From an uncultured Actinomycetes bacterium (GTDB taxonomy: Bacteria; Actinomycetota; Actinomycetes; Nanopelagicales; Nanopelagicaceae), in NCBI GenBank assembly GCA_903891755.1, contig CAITFY010000022.1:1-39139 (forward strand): DNA of 39,139 nt. The letters run 5' to 3'. A program made the position numbers and the translations under genes. Numbering within the stretch: the first letter of the stretch is position 1; every line of letters begins with the position of its first letter. Shown piece by piece: positions 12,878 to 39,139 of the stretch. The notes under the pieces are model-generated. The model was not told the DNA's origin, did no database searches, and saw nothing but the letters and a program-made list of their open reading frames with translations.

Positions 12878-13621
12878 TTAGTTTCCGGCAGGAATACGCA
12901 TTCGGTAGCCGACGCCACGCACAGTGTGAATCAGAGCTGGCTCATAAATATCAATCTTCTTGCGAAGATATGAGACATATGTTTCAACAATTCCAGCATC
13001 TCCACGGAAGTCGTACTGCCAGACGTGATCCAAGATTTGAGACTTGCTCACAACACGATCAGCGTTGATCATGAGGTAGCGAAGAAGTAGGAACTCGGTA
13101 GGCGAGAGGTCGATGAGGTGGCCTGCGCGACGAACTTCGTGAGTTGCCTCATCGAGTTCAAGATCAACGAAGCGAACCTTCTCTTCATCAACACTTGCCT
13201 CTACGGCGCCGATGCGACGCAAGAGTGCGCGAAGACGAGCGACCAACTCTTCAAGTGAGAAAGGCTTAGTCACATAGTCATCTCCACCAATGGTGAGGCC
13301 GGCAATCTTGTCCTCGACTGTATCTTTTGCTGTTAAAAATAGAACGCCAACGCTATGTCCCTCAGAGCGAAGTTGGCGACAGACTTCAAAGCCATCTTGG
13401 TCTGGGAGCATTACATCGAGAATGAGGGCATGGGGCTTGAACTCTTCCGCGATGGTCAGAGCCTGGGAGCCGGTTGCCGCGGTGCGAACATCAAAGCCCA
13501 CGAAACGAAGGCTGGTCGCAATAAGTTCACTGATTGAACTCTCATCATCAACAACAAGAATTCGCTGCAAGTTGCTCTGGGATGTATCTGCCACGGTGAC
13601 TCTCTCTTTAAGTGCGGTCAT
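12878..13621 (-). CDS. OmpR/PhoB-family response regulator
   Basis: ILVVDDESSISELI, DVMLPDQDGF, C-terminal winged helix (VETYVSYLRKKID). ATG 13621 preferred over GTG 13636: preceded by GGAGG with 8-nt spacing. Confidence 0.94.
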   Translation of the reverse strand: MTALKERVTVADTSQSNLQRILVVDDESSISELIATSLRFVGFDVRTAATGSQALTIAEEFKPHALILDVMLPDQDGFEVCRQLRSEGHSVGVLFLTAKDTVEDKIAGLTIGGDDYVTKPFSLEELVARLRALLRRIGAVEASVDEEKVRFVDLELDEATHEVRRAGHLIDLSPTEFLLLRYLMINADRVVSKSQILDHVWQYDFRGDAGIVETYVSYLRKKIDIYEPALIHTVRGVGYRMRIPAGN

Positions 13622-35319: not shown

Positions 35320-36900
35320 TTATAAAGTTATGGTTTTCACAGAATTCGGAAGACTTAGATGGCTCGCGACAATAACTGCCTTATCGCGCAGAGCGTCAAG
35401 AACTCTGATGGAGATTCGTTCCACCATTTGTGCATCTAAGAATTCAAAGGGTTCATCGAGAATTACTATTGGCGTTTCTCGCAGCAAAACCCTCGCCAAC
35501 TTGAGTCGTTGCTTCTCCCCGCCAGAGAAATTCAATCCAAGAGGGCCAACCATCGTATCTAGACCTTCTGGAAGTTCTGAAACGAATTTATCAAGCTCGA
35601 CAAGCTTAAGTGCTTCAAGTAATTCTTCATCACTCGCCTCTGGGTTGCCAATCTTTAAATTTTCGCGGATTGATGTTCCAAAGAGGTAATCATCTTGAAG
35701 CAGAGTCGTGACGAGATGTTGATCGCCAGCTTTTAGATTTTCTCCATTTAGTACTACTCGCCCTGTAAATGGGAGGAAACCCAAGATTGCATTAATGATC
35801 GAAGATTTACCTGCTCCAGATCTTCCGGTTATTAAAAGCACATCCCCAGGTGTAATAACCGCGCTGATACTTCGGGTATGTGCTCCTTCGATGAGTGGGT
35901 GGAGTTCAATCAACTCAAGTTTTACAGTGGCAGGTACCGGCGAAGCAACGATTTGCAGATCTTTACTCTCCTCCAACATTGGTGCTAAGTTCTCTACAGC
36001 TCCTAGCACTTGTCGTAACTGCGAAAATGCCGCTGGGAGTGGAGTCATACCATCGAAGATTGCGAGTGGTACGAGTGCAATTACCGCAACGTTTATTCCA
36101 GCTAACTGGTGGGTAAATACTCCGCGGGCTGCAAACCAAAGCGCGATCGCGATAGTAAATCCCAGGATAAGAAAATATGCACCAGATGCCAAACCAGATC
36201 GTTGAGCATTCTTGCTCTCAACATGGGCAATTTTCTTCTGAGCTGATTCAATCTGCTTCAAGAGCTCGTTATCATAATTAAAAATCAATGATTCAGGAGC
36301 AGATTCAGAGATCTGCAATATTTGATCGAAGAGTTCTCCCTCATATTTACGTGTATCTGACTTACTAGAAGAGAGCGTGGCTAAGAATGGAATCAGGAAC
36401 ATAGCGAGTAAAAAGAGCAGACCAATTACCTTGCCGCAGCTCGGTAGAAGCCAATGAATAATCGTGATTCCAGATACTCCGGAGATCAGCGCAGCGAGCC
36501 ATGGTGATGCAATTCGAAGCCAGAGATCTTGCGCTAACTCCACATCATTCATGATCTGAGAGAGAACGTTTCCACGATGTAACCCGGCAAAATCAGAGGG
36601 GAGTAAGCGACTAAATCTCTCGTAAATGCGCACTCGCAATGCAGTCTGAATCTTCAGCGCGCTGTTATGTTCCAATATTCTGCTGGCATATTTCAGCGCT
36701 CCGCGGGAGAGACCGAAGAAACGCACGCTCACAATTGCGACTTCCAGCACCAAGACGGGAGGTTTGGTTGATGCCATTGAGATCAGCCAGGCACTTGTTG
36801 CAAGCAAGCCCACTGCAGCTCCAAGTGAGCAACCACCGAGGAATACCGCAGCAAACATCTCTGTGCGCTGTGCTTTAAAGAGACGCAATAAATTTTTCAT
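35320..36900 (-). CDS. cydC: Thiol reductant ABC exporter subunit CydC
   Basis: ABC TM domain plus GRSGAGKSS, NFSGGEKQRLKLARVLL, VILDEPFEFLD; follows cydD with ATGA overlap. Confidence 0.92.
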   Translation of the reverse strand: MKNLLRLFKAQRTEMFAAVFLGGCSLGAAVGLLATSAWLISMASTKPPVLVLEVAIVSVRFFGLSRGALKYASRILEHNSALKIQTALRVRIYERFSRLLPSDFAGLHRGNVLSQIMNDVELAQDLWLRIASPWLAALISGVSGITIIHWLLPSCGKVIGLLFLLAMFLIPFLATLSSSKSDTRKYEGELFDQILQISESAPESLIFNYDNELLKQIESAQKKIAHVESKNAQRSGLASGAYFLILGFTIAIALWFAARGVFTHQLAGINVAVIALVPLAIFDGMTPLPAAFSQLRQVLGAVENLAPMLEESKDLQIVASPVPATVKLELIELHPLIEGAHTRSISAVITPGDVLLITGRSGAGKSSIINAILGFLPFTGRVVLNGENLKAGDQHLVTTLLQDDYLFGTSIRENLKIGNPEASDEELLEALKLVELDKFVSELPEGLDTMVGPLGLNFSGGEKQRLKLARVLLRETPIVILDEPFEFLDAQMVERISIRVLDALRDKAVIVASHLSLPNSVKTITL

Positions 36901-38534
36901 TGCGAGGCTCCGAGGACGGTTACAGATGCTGATGTGCCAATGAGCAATTCTCGGTGGGAGATGAGCAGGATGCTGGTACCGGACTTTGCGCGTTTTTCTA
37001 ACAATCGGGCAATTGTTGCTTCGGATATGTCATCGATTGAAGCAGTAGGTTCATCAAGAATTACTAACGAAGATTCTTTGAGTAGCGCTCTAGCAAGTGC
37101 AATCTTTCGCATCTGCCCGATTGATAACTTCTGACGAACAGTTCCAAGTTCAGTCTCTAGTCCATTGGGGAGATCATCGATTTTAAGATCCACCTCAATG
37201 AGAGCATCAATCAATTGAGCATTGGTGGTGCTAGGTGCGGCATATCTCAAAATCTCCGCGACGCTTCCAATTGGATACTTCGGCTCTTGTGGTTGCCAGG
37301 CGATTAGTTTTCGCCACGCCTTGATATCTAAATCTTGAAGGCGATGCACTCCAGAATCCGAATCCACCCGGACCTCTCCCGCGCTTGGATTAATGAACCC
37401 GAGCAATATCGACGCAAGAGTTGATTTTCCAGATCCCGAAGGCCCCACCAAAGCATGGATTCGTCCGGGTTCTATCTCTCCAGATGGGATCACAACTTCA
37501 CTTCGCCCTGGGTATGAAACTTTGAGTTCGCTCCATGAGATACGTGAAAACGAGGTGAGTTGTGCTGCGCCGTTGGAATTCGGCTTTTCAAGAATAGTAA
37601 AGAGTTGATCAAATGCAGCTAAACCATCGGTCGCAGAGTGAAAGTAAGCGGAGACTTGTCGAATTGGCCAGTAGACCTCCGGGGCGAGTACGAGAACGAA
37701 TAAACCAACGCTCAATGGCATTGAACCATTTACTAAACGCAGACCAATCGTGACCGCTAAGAGCGCCACGGAGAGGGTAGCTACCAACTCAAGAGCGAGT
37801 GAGGTAAGAAATGAGATACGCAGAACCTGCATCGTCTCCTTGCGATACTTCTCGCCAACCTCGCGAAGTCGCTGTGACTGCAGCTTCTCGCGCCCGTATA
37901 CCTTCAAAGTGGTGAGTCCACTTAAGAGATCGAGGAAGTAACCACCGAGCAGTCCCAGAGTTTTCCATTTCTTCTCAGTAGCACTTGCGGTAAATCTTCC
38001 GATAAGAATGCCAAATATAGGAATAAGAGGGAGAGTGAAAAGAATGATCGCCCCGGATTTCCAATCGCGTAAGGCAATGCTCACGCCGACCGCAACTGGA
38101 ACAACCACTGCGATAAAGAGTTGTGGCAGAAACTTTGCAAAGTACCCATCAAGGTTATTAATCCCCTTTGTCACCAGGACGGCCAGACCCGCCGTACCTA
38201 GGCTCTGGGTATCACTTCCACCATTTGAAAGCGATTTCTTCATCACCTCGGTGCGAAGTTCGTTGCGCATCTTGCTACTTGCTCTGGCGCCCAATCGATC
38301 ATTTATGTAAGCCAGCAATGCTCTTGCGATAAAGACTGCTGCGAGGGCAACGACCTCATGGGTCAGGGAGGAGAAGGTGCGTTTCTGTTGAAAGAATTTG
38401 CAGATCAAATCAACGAGCAAGAACGCCTGCCCAATGGTTGCAATGGCACCCACAACTGCAATGAGAACGAGGGTGAAAATAAAACCCCGGCTGCTTCGAG
38501 AGTACCGAAGCAGCCGGGGGTCAAATGGTTTCAC
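36897..38534 (-). CDS. cydD: Thiol reductant ABC exporter subunit CydD
   Basis: KPFDPRLLRYSRSSRG N-terminus, GPSGSGKSTLA, LSIGQMRKIALARALL, VILDEPTAS; GTG start overlaps the cydB stop by 1 nt. Confidence 0.93.
   Translation of the reverse strand: MKPFDPRLLRYSRSSRGFIFTLVLIAVVGAIATIGQAFLLVDLICKFFQQKRTFSSLTHEVVALAAVFIARALLAYINDRLGARASSKMRNELRTEVMKKSLSNGGSDTQSLGTAGLAVLVTKGINNLDGYFAKFLPQLFIAVVVPVAVGVSIALRDWKSGAIILFTLPLIPIFGILIGRFTASATEKKWKTLGLLGGYFLDLLSGLTTLKVYGREKLQSQRLREVGEKYRKETMQVLRISFLTSLALELVATLSVALLAVTIGLRLVNGSMPLSVGLFVLVLAPEVYWPIRQVSAYFHSATDGLAAFDQLFTILEKPNSNGAAQLTSFSRISWSELKVSYPGRSEVVIPSGEIEPGRIHALVGPSGSGKSTLASILLGFINPSAGEVRVDSDSGVHRLQDLDIKAWRKLIAWQPQEPKYPIGSVAEILRYAAPSTTNAQLIDALIEVDLKIDDLPNGLETELGTVRQKLSIGQMRKIALARALLKESSLVILDEPTASIDDISEATIARLLEKRAKSGTSILLISHRELLIGTSASVTVLGASQ
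38481..38519 (-). terminator. Intrinsic-terminator-like hairpin embedded in the 5' coding region of cydD
   Basis: Minus strand: CCCCGGCTGCTTCG-gtactct-CGAAGCAGCCGGGG-TTTTATTTT; perfect 14-bp stem, 7-nt loop, T-tract only on the operon's 3' side. Confidence 0.7.
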
Positions 38535-39139
38535 TAGTGGACGGTATCCAAAACTCCAGCTTCTGGGGTAGAAATCTGGTTTGGATTAATACGCTTACGG
38601 AAGACCCAATATGACCAGCCCTGATAGAGCAAGACGATTGGGGTTAAGACCACTGCAACCCAAGTCATAACGCCCAAGGTGTAGTGAGTACTTGAAGCGT
38701 TAAAGATTGTGAGGCCAGGACCACCGGCGGTGATATTTGGCATCACATTTGGATAGAGACCAGTGAAGAGGGTGATTACCACCGCGGCTGTTGCAATTGC
38801 GGAGAATAGGAAGGCATAACCTTCACGCCCCCTGGCATTTGAAGCCAGAGCAGTCAACCAGGCAACAACAACAACGACTGATCCTGCGATGACGCCACCC
38901 TTAGAGGTAAGTCCCAACATCGTCCAACCCAAGAAGAGCACAGCGAGAAGAGCTGTAACTAGTCCGACGCGTTGACCGAGTTTGTTGGCACGAACTCGAA
39001 TCTCGCCTTCGGTCTTGAGTGCCAAGAAAAATGCACCATGAGAGACGAAGAGTGAGAGTGTCGTGAGGCCTCCGAGAAGTGCATATGGATTTAGCAAGTT
39101 CCAGAAGCCACCGCTGTATTGAATATATCCAGCGGAGAC
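38534..39139 (-). CDS. cydB: Cytochrome bd ubiquinol oxidase subunit II (5' end outside window)
   Basis: GYIQYSGGFWNLLNPYALLGGLTTLSLFVSHGAFFLALKTEG; reading frame stays open to the window edge, so the ORF-track start at 39097 is internal. Confidence 0.92.
   Translation of the reverse strand, partial: VSAGYIQYSGGFWNLLNPYALLGGLTTLSLFVSHGAFFLALKTEGEIRVRANKLGQRVGLVTALLAVLFLGWTMLGLTSKGGVIAGSVVVVVAWLTALASNARGREGYAFLFSAIATAAVVITLFTGLYPNVMPNITAGGPGLTIFNASSTHYTLGVMTWVAVVLTPIVLLYQGWSYWVFRKRINPNQISTPEAGVLDTVH

Follow-up and report, generated by a model that had tools for sequence, protein, structure and literature searches.

A hairpin within the first codons of cydD

The window analyzed here, a stretch of DNA of 39,139 nucleotides, ends inside a cyd operon that is encoded on the minus strand (Table 1). 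The identities of cydB, cydD, and cydC were confirmed by NCBIfam equivalog models, and the cydB stop codon TAG and the cydD start codon GTG have one base in common (38534). The first 47 residues of the cydB fragment are repeated, with 100% identity, at positions 1-141 of contig C83 of genome G000, and this repeat between the window end at 39139 and C83 is probably an assembly break.

Table 1. Features of the cydB-cydD-cydC region and of the hairpin in the window
Feature	Position	Strand	Description	Evidence
cydB, 3' part	38534..39139	(-)	cytochrome bd oxidase subunit II, cut at window end; stop TAG 38536-38534	Pfam PF02322, NCBIfam TIGR00203
cydB stop/cydD start overlap	38532..38536	(-)	TAGTG; no recognizable Shine-Dalgarno ahead of cydD	sequence
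cydD	36897..38534	(-)	thiol reductant ABC exporter subunit CydD; GTG start at 38534	NCBIfam TIGR02857, E 1.5e-159
cydC	35320..36900	(-)	overlaps cydD stop (ATGA)	NCBIfam TIGR02868, E 8e-129
5' arm of hairpin	38506..38519	(-)	CCCCGGCTGCTTCG; cydD nt +16..+29, codons P-R-L-L-R	sequence, folding
Hairpin loop	38499..38505	(-)	GTACTCT, 7 nt (5 nt if G-U pair forms)	sequence
3' arm of hairpin	38485..38498	(-)	CGAAGCAGCCGGGG; cydD nt +37..+50, codons R-S-S-R-G	sequence, folding, covariation
U-tract	38476..38484	(-)	TTTTATTTT, adjoining 3' side of stem; codons G-F-I-F	sequence

The start of the cydD message can form a hairpin with a perfect stem of 14 base pairs, or of 15 when a G-U pair at the loop is counted; in the latter form 11 of the 15 pairs are G-C and the loop is 5 nt. 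It spans nt +16 to +50 of cydD on the minus strand, is encoded by codons 6-17, and is followed by a tail with T at 8 of 9 positions. An earlier note on this DNA had reported a perfect 14-bp inverted repeat with a 7-nt loop and a T-rich tail, about 15 nt inside a cydD whose GTG overlaps the cydB stop, and had read it as a terminator written into coding sequence; the arms, loop, and tail lie exactly where it placed them, and stem, loop, and U-tract all fall inside the cydD open reading frame (ORF). Both hallmarks of an intrinsic (Rho-independent) terminator are present, namely a GC-rich stem with a short loop and a U-tract immediately 3' of the stem, the latter in the window as well as in the other family members that encode GFIF.

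The 50-nt hairpin stretch folds with a minimum free energy (MFE) of -31.5 kcal/mol (z -7.7 relative to dinucleotide shuffles, with 0 of 200 equally good), and when the 81 nt around the hairpin are folded the terminator stem alone appears. Under a simple scoring scheme of our own (G-C 3, A-U 2, G-U 0.5, one mismatch tolerated) this is the strongest hairpin in the window, and one other, interrupted and located at 13110-13155, has a score of at least 26. Because a simple scan lists 13 weaker terminator-like matches in the window, compared with 4.8 in shuffles, a terminator-like match alone has little meaning; what distinguishes the cydD hairpin among these matches is the length of its stem.

Several other readings of the element were discarded at this stage. 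The matches above the Rfam 15 gathering score in the window are two tRNAs only, with none at the hairpin, which rules out a known RNA family. A frameshift stimulator was set aside on inspection, as no slippery sequence was seen at the overlap. An annotation artefact, in which the hairpin would be intergenic and cydD would start later, was rejected because CydD proteins throughout the class, those of hairpin-less genomes among them, share the conserved motif DPRLLR..R..R.

Conservation of the hairpin and selection on its structure

A scan of genome contigs with CydD yielded 28 relatives, metagenome-assembled actinobacteria, and was followed by whole-genome searches within the family; the relatives are mostly metagenome assemblies. 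All relatives from the scan that have an intact 5' end carry the hairpin at the same codons. Across the family, cydD was found in 43 of the 151 genomes searched, cydB and cydD almost always occurring together, and the hairpin is formed from the same codons in 62 of 63 cydD genes, with the core stem starting at +15 to +17 in nearly all. It is present in members whose peptide differs: in a distant clade the CydD N-terminus is DLRLLLSRSGSRRLF instead of DPRLLRYSRSSRGF and a stem of 10-20 bp is still found at approximately nt +12 to +54, while in three genes (L067, L098, and L109) the number of codons differs and the stem re-forms in a shorter peptide. The sole exception in the family is the AT-rich L189 (genome G011), which has cydB and cydD without the hairpin, so that the hairpin has been dispensable at least once. 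The CydD N-terminus of L189 is divergent, making this a natural case of hairpin loss.

A palindrome of this kind could in principle be a by-product of the protein motif and codon usage, and part of the stem is indeed inherent in the peptide, whose first and second codon positions come close to being self-complementary (CTN/AGY, CGN/CGN). Such a stem, however, almost never arises when the peptide is randomly recoded with synonymous codons according to family codon usage (200 recodings for each gene, a number that bounds the P-values). For the window peptide, 0 of 200 recodings gave such a stem, with a null score of 11.7 ± 4.0 compared with 39.5 for the real sequence. The recoding null was beaten by 46 of 46 genes (largest P 0.01; mean MFE z -4.84), by all 14 genes of a second batch from genomes fetched later as a test, and by L160 and L187 (all P 0.000 in the later set); among the 63 genes, L189 alone failed this test. 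Codon choice points in the same direction, with the serines of the 3' arm encoded by AGY in 119 of 119 cases compared with 29% in the remainder of cydD.

Changes on both sides of the stem are also more frequent than expected. Clade 1 has 24 two-sided changed cells, compared with 7.9 in shuffles (0 of 500), and in clade 2, where 99.6% of cells are paired, two-sided changes occur at 6 pairs and in 15 cells, compared with 1.1 and 2.5 after shuffling (0 of 500); these are raw counts over related sequences, without a dedicated relatedness test. When the changes are placed on the CydD tree by parsimony, each clade accounts for roughly 10 two-sided events. Disruptions number about a dozen; they are confined to clade 1 and affect mainly the wobble pairs and positions close to the loop. 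In L212 the base of the stem has changed from C-G to U-A by way of CTG to TTG (Leu) and AGA to AAA (Arg to Lys), and the pairing was retained even as a protein residue changed. The alignment of relatives that the earlier note had proposed thus shows stem complementarity kept by compensatory changes, and the relatives did not show the outcome it had named as evidence against its reading, a loss of complementarity with the protein conserved.

Strong intragenic hairpins are not a common trait in this group. A 400-kb stretch of the complete relative G091, comprising 355 predicted genes and 18,836 coding windows, holds no coding-strand hairpin stronger than the one in cydD, and only 14 there reach a score of 25. 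The recoding nulls and the covariation refute a chance or protein-only origin of the stem, which moreover outlasts a different peptide and indels, and we regard coincidence as scarcely credible. Because independent events in two clades coincide with the result of the recoding null, selection on RNA (or single-strand) structure is hard to avoid, and we conclude that an RNA hairpin in cydD codons 6-17 is almost certainly under selection across the family, independent of the encoded peptide. The stem also seems to have influenced the sequence of the CydD N-terminal peptide, which has RSSRG or SGSRR in the family where CydD elsewhere is RATR-like; the description of this segment in the earlier note as a normal CydD N-terminus holds within the family and does not extend beyond it.

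Perfect inverted repeats can also be sites in DNA, and the contigs of two relatives, L001 and L061, start at or within the hairpin, as might be expected given that palindromes can break assemblies. A DNA-level element, whether a protein-binding inverted repeat, a cruciform, or a mobile palindrome, nevertheless appears very improbable, since the sequence, length, and loop of the stem vary with complementarity kept, unlike a binding site, and T-richness beside the stem is confined to the coding strand. A mobile palindrome in particular was rejected, as comparison with hairpin-less homologues shows N-terminal regions of equal length and hence no insertion.

A candidate partial terminator at the cydAB/cydDC boundary

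We consider it likely, from the position and form of the hairpin, that it is a boundary element reducing cydDC relative to cydAB. In the window's lineage we lean somewhat toward transcription termination as the main step, with the hairpin as a putative partial intrinsic terminator within the cydD reading frame, and this reading is favored because of the U-tract. RNA polymerase leaving cydB would transcribe the GC-rich stem and the U-tract, and some polymerases would stop at approximately cydD nt +55 to +59. The resulting cydAB transcript would have the hairpin at its 3' end, and this structure would also shield the terminated mRNA against 3' exonucleases. The remaining polymerases would read through into cydDC, expression of cydC, the downstream partner of cydD, being likewise affected. 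The net outcome would be CydAB, the oxidase, in excess of CydDC, the exporter.

Sense tails contain 6.3 T of 9, compared with a synonymous expectation of 5.4, and antisense tails contain 2.2 of 9, which rules out an antisense terminator. The synonymous T expectation is exceeded by 38 of 46 tails, although relatedness among these sequences must be borne in mind and the sister clade includes some poor tails. The T-rich tail arises mostly from hydrophobic codons (GFIF, RLFF), with an excess of about one T of nine, and the U-tract therefore supports termination only moderately. Canonical terminators do exist in the lineage of G091, since the intergenic hairpins of the G091 stretch include typical examples, in which a GC stem lies between a run of A and a run of T.

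Conservation is stronger for the hairpin than for the U-tract. The window's lineage has a full U-tract and parts of the sister clade do not, with poor tails in L098 (ATTCGTCCC), L064 (CTATTTCCC), and L106, and because the U-tract is weaker there, 3'-end protection is a serious rival. In that case a full cydABDC mRNA would be cut in cydDC and the hairpin would block 3'-5' exonucleases, so that cydAB outlives cydDC in a differential decay like that of malEFG. In E. coli most protective hairpins behind stabilized upstream genes (17 of 26) are located within the downstream ORF, and they are conserved, wobble positions included (Dar and Sorek 2018, PMC5927463). Like the cydD hairpin, these are stable structures in the 5' part of a downstream gene, at the border of an operon segment. 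They differ in lacking a U-tract and in lying on average about 107 nt into the ORF, whereas the cydD stem already begins at +16 and, in the window's lineage, is followed by a U-tract, the distinction becoming ambiguous only in some sister-clade members. The cydD hairpin is also kept family-wide with two-sided changes and peptide remodeling. On balance we think protection without termination rather unlikely, and the two may possibly act jointly; whether by termination or by 3'-end protection, cydAB mRNA should exceed cydDC mRNA.

The role of translation

The earlier note suggested that termination could be coupled to translation, with translation of the first cydD codons disrupting the hairpin. 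The idea of coupling can be retained, but a different ribosome is the likelier modulator. In E. coli, translation of an ORF that contains a terminator causes almost no repression if the terminator is in the first 100 bp, and a terminator 30 bp inside an ORF loses only about 10% of its efficiency; repression is strong at short distances and eases gradually as these increase to about 30 bp, and a stem needs 10-15 nt from the ribosomal A site to fold fully (Li et al., PMC4824070). Given these distance effects and the scant repression by the containing ORF, the relevant ribosome would be the one finishing cydB. In 45 of 46 genes the stem lies 11 to 17 nt beyond the cydB stop codon, nearly always at 11 or 14 nt, and in the remaining gene the distance is 36 nt; this spacing also makes cydB translation the more likely modulator. 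By analogy, the terminator is probably modulated by the ribosome finishing cydB and not by one starting cydD.

A ribosome finishing cydB would halt 11-14 nt ahead of the stem, just the clearance that stem folding needs, and read-through should increase when such a ribosome is close behind the polymerase. As some E. coli constructs were strongly repressed when the terminator came 8-17 nt after the stop codon (PMC4824070), the putative cydD terminator could be largely silent under good cydB translation. Those constructs are relevant in that a terminator approximately 30 bp inside an ORF can work and can be repressed by a ribosome that finishes translation shortly before it, but they carry an engineered lambda tR2 in a proteobacterium, unlike the natural actinobacterial hairpin. 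A still broader scheme is conceivable, though we hold it to be doubtful as a whole: a working terminator in the cydD ORF throughout the family, a CydD N-terminus shaped by it, and read-through gated by the cydB-finishing ribosome. If this were true, the cydAB:cydDC ratio would track and respond to translation or respiratory state.

The same geometry could serve translation directly, the stem just past a ribosome on the cydB stop/cydD start tuning re-initiation or slowing early cydD elongation and thereby lowering CydD, or aiding it by pausing. The two genes overlap in nearly all family members, the cydD start codon is mostly GTG, and no run of more than three bases matching AGGAGG is found at -18 to -4 in any of the 63 family members, as expected for re-initiation after cydB; the core stem also begins just beyond the expected ribosome footprint. 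However, its constant distance to the start is explained by codon homology alone, and translational control would require neither a U-tract nor a stem as long as 20 bp. It also leaves unexplained why other orders have intergenic hairpins at this boundary (see below), and we judge it distinctly unlikely.

Relation to known systems

In the trp and pyrBI attenuators a terminator is located in or near translated sequence and its efficiency can depend on the position of a ribosome. The cydD hairpin shares the location in translated sequence and differs from these attenuators in having no leader peptide and in being placed in the ORF of a structural gene. In cellulolytic clostridia, internal terminators separate highly from lowly expressed genes of ABC importer operons (Wu et al., PMC9045158). 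Like the cydD element, these terminators consist of a hairpin and a U-tract between a gene needed in excess and its transporter genes, with a long GC-rich stem and a U-tract weaker than canonical ones. They lie in long intergenic regions and their function has been tested, whereas the cydD element is wholly in the downstream ORF and is a predicted terminator.

The cydD element is thus a combination of two known kinds, with the form of a terminator and a location inside an ORF, at its very start and family-wide. No earlier description of such an element for cyd operons was found in the literature searched, which took in few subscription papers. It provides a clear natural case of RNA structure, not protein function, dictating codon choice and even N-terminal residues, and of a single reading frame that seemingly carries a transcription stop signal. 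It also suggests a testable explanation of how unequal levels of an oxidase and its assembly exporter can be set in a compact operon that has no intergenic space, and the compensated stems of the family are a rich natural set for studying ORF-internal terminators and transcription-translation coupling in actinobacteria.

The cydB-cydD boundary in other families

Elsewhere in the class, genes from approximately 30 genome families were sampled, and the majority of them lack such a hairpin at these codons, as in the Streptomyces-like genomes with DPRLLRYARATR. A strong intergenic hairpin is present in the cydB-cydD gap in other actinobacterial orders (L085, L092, L111, L193, L194, and L197). Within one further family, f34, there are members with a hairpin embedded in the ORF at these codons: L191 has it, and L085 has it together with the intergenic one. 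L110, from another family, has a different ORF-embedded hairpin of 15 bp at cydD nt +26..+58, above synonymous expectation. In this small sample, with its noisy high-GC background, it looks as though one boundary function may be served by either an intergenic or an embedded hairpin.

Other repeats were observed along the way. Ten Streptomyces-like loci (L069, L070, L072, L074-L076, L083, L084, L088, and L090) have parS-like TTTCACGTGAAAC boxes at the cydB-cydD junction, often doubled or within perfect hairpins, and located in the gap or across the cydD start. The second-strongest coding-strand hairpin in the 400 kb of G091 is a 13-bp stem in codons LAAVGGYGRGEL of glnD (PII uridylyltransferase; L178:16223-16255), which is kept in most close genera (L217-L221, L223, L224, and L232) and absent from the window's genus and others. 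Finally, the cydC gene of L064 (G091 822950-824515) contains a long imperfect mid-gene hairpin at nt +966..+1011, with a score of 33, above synonymous expectation.
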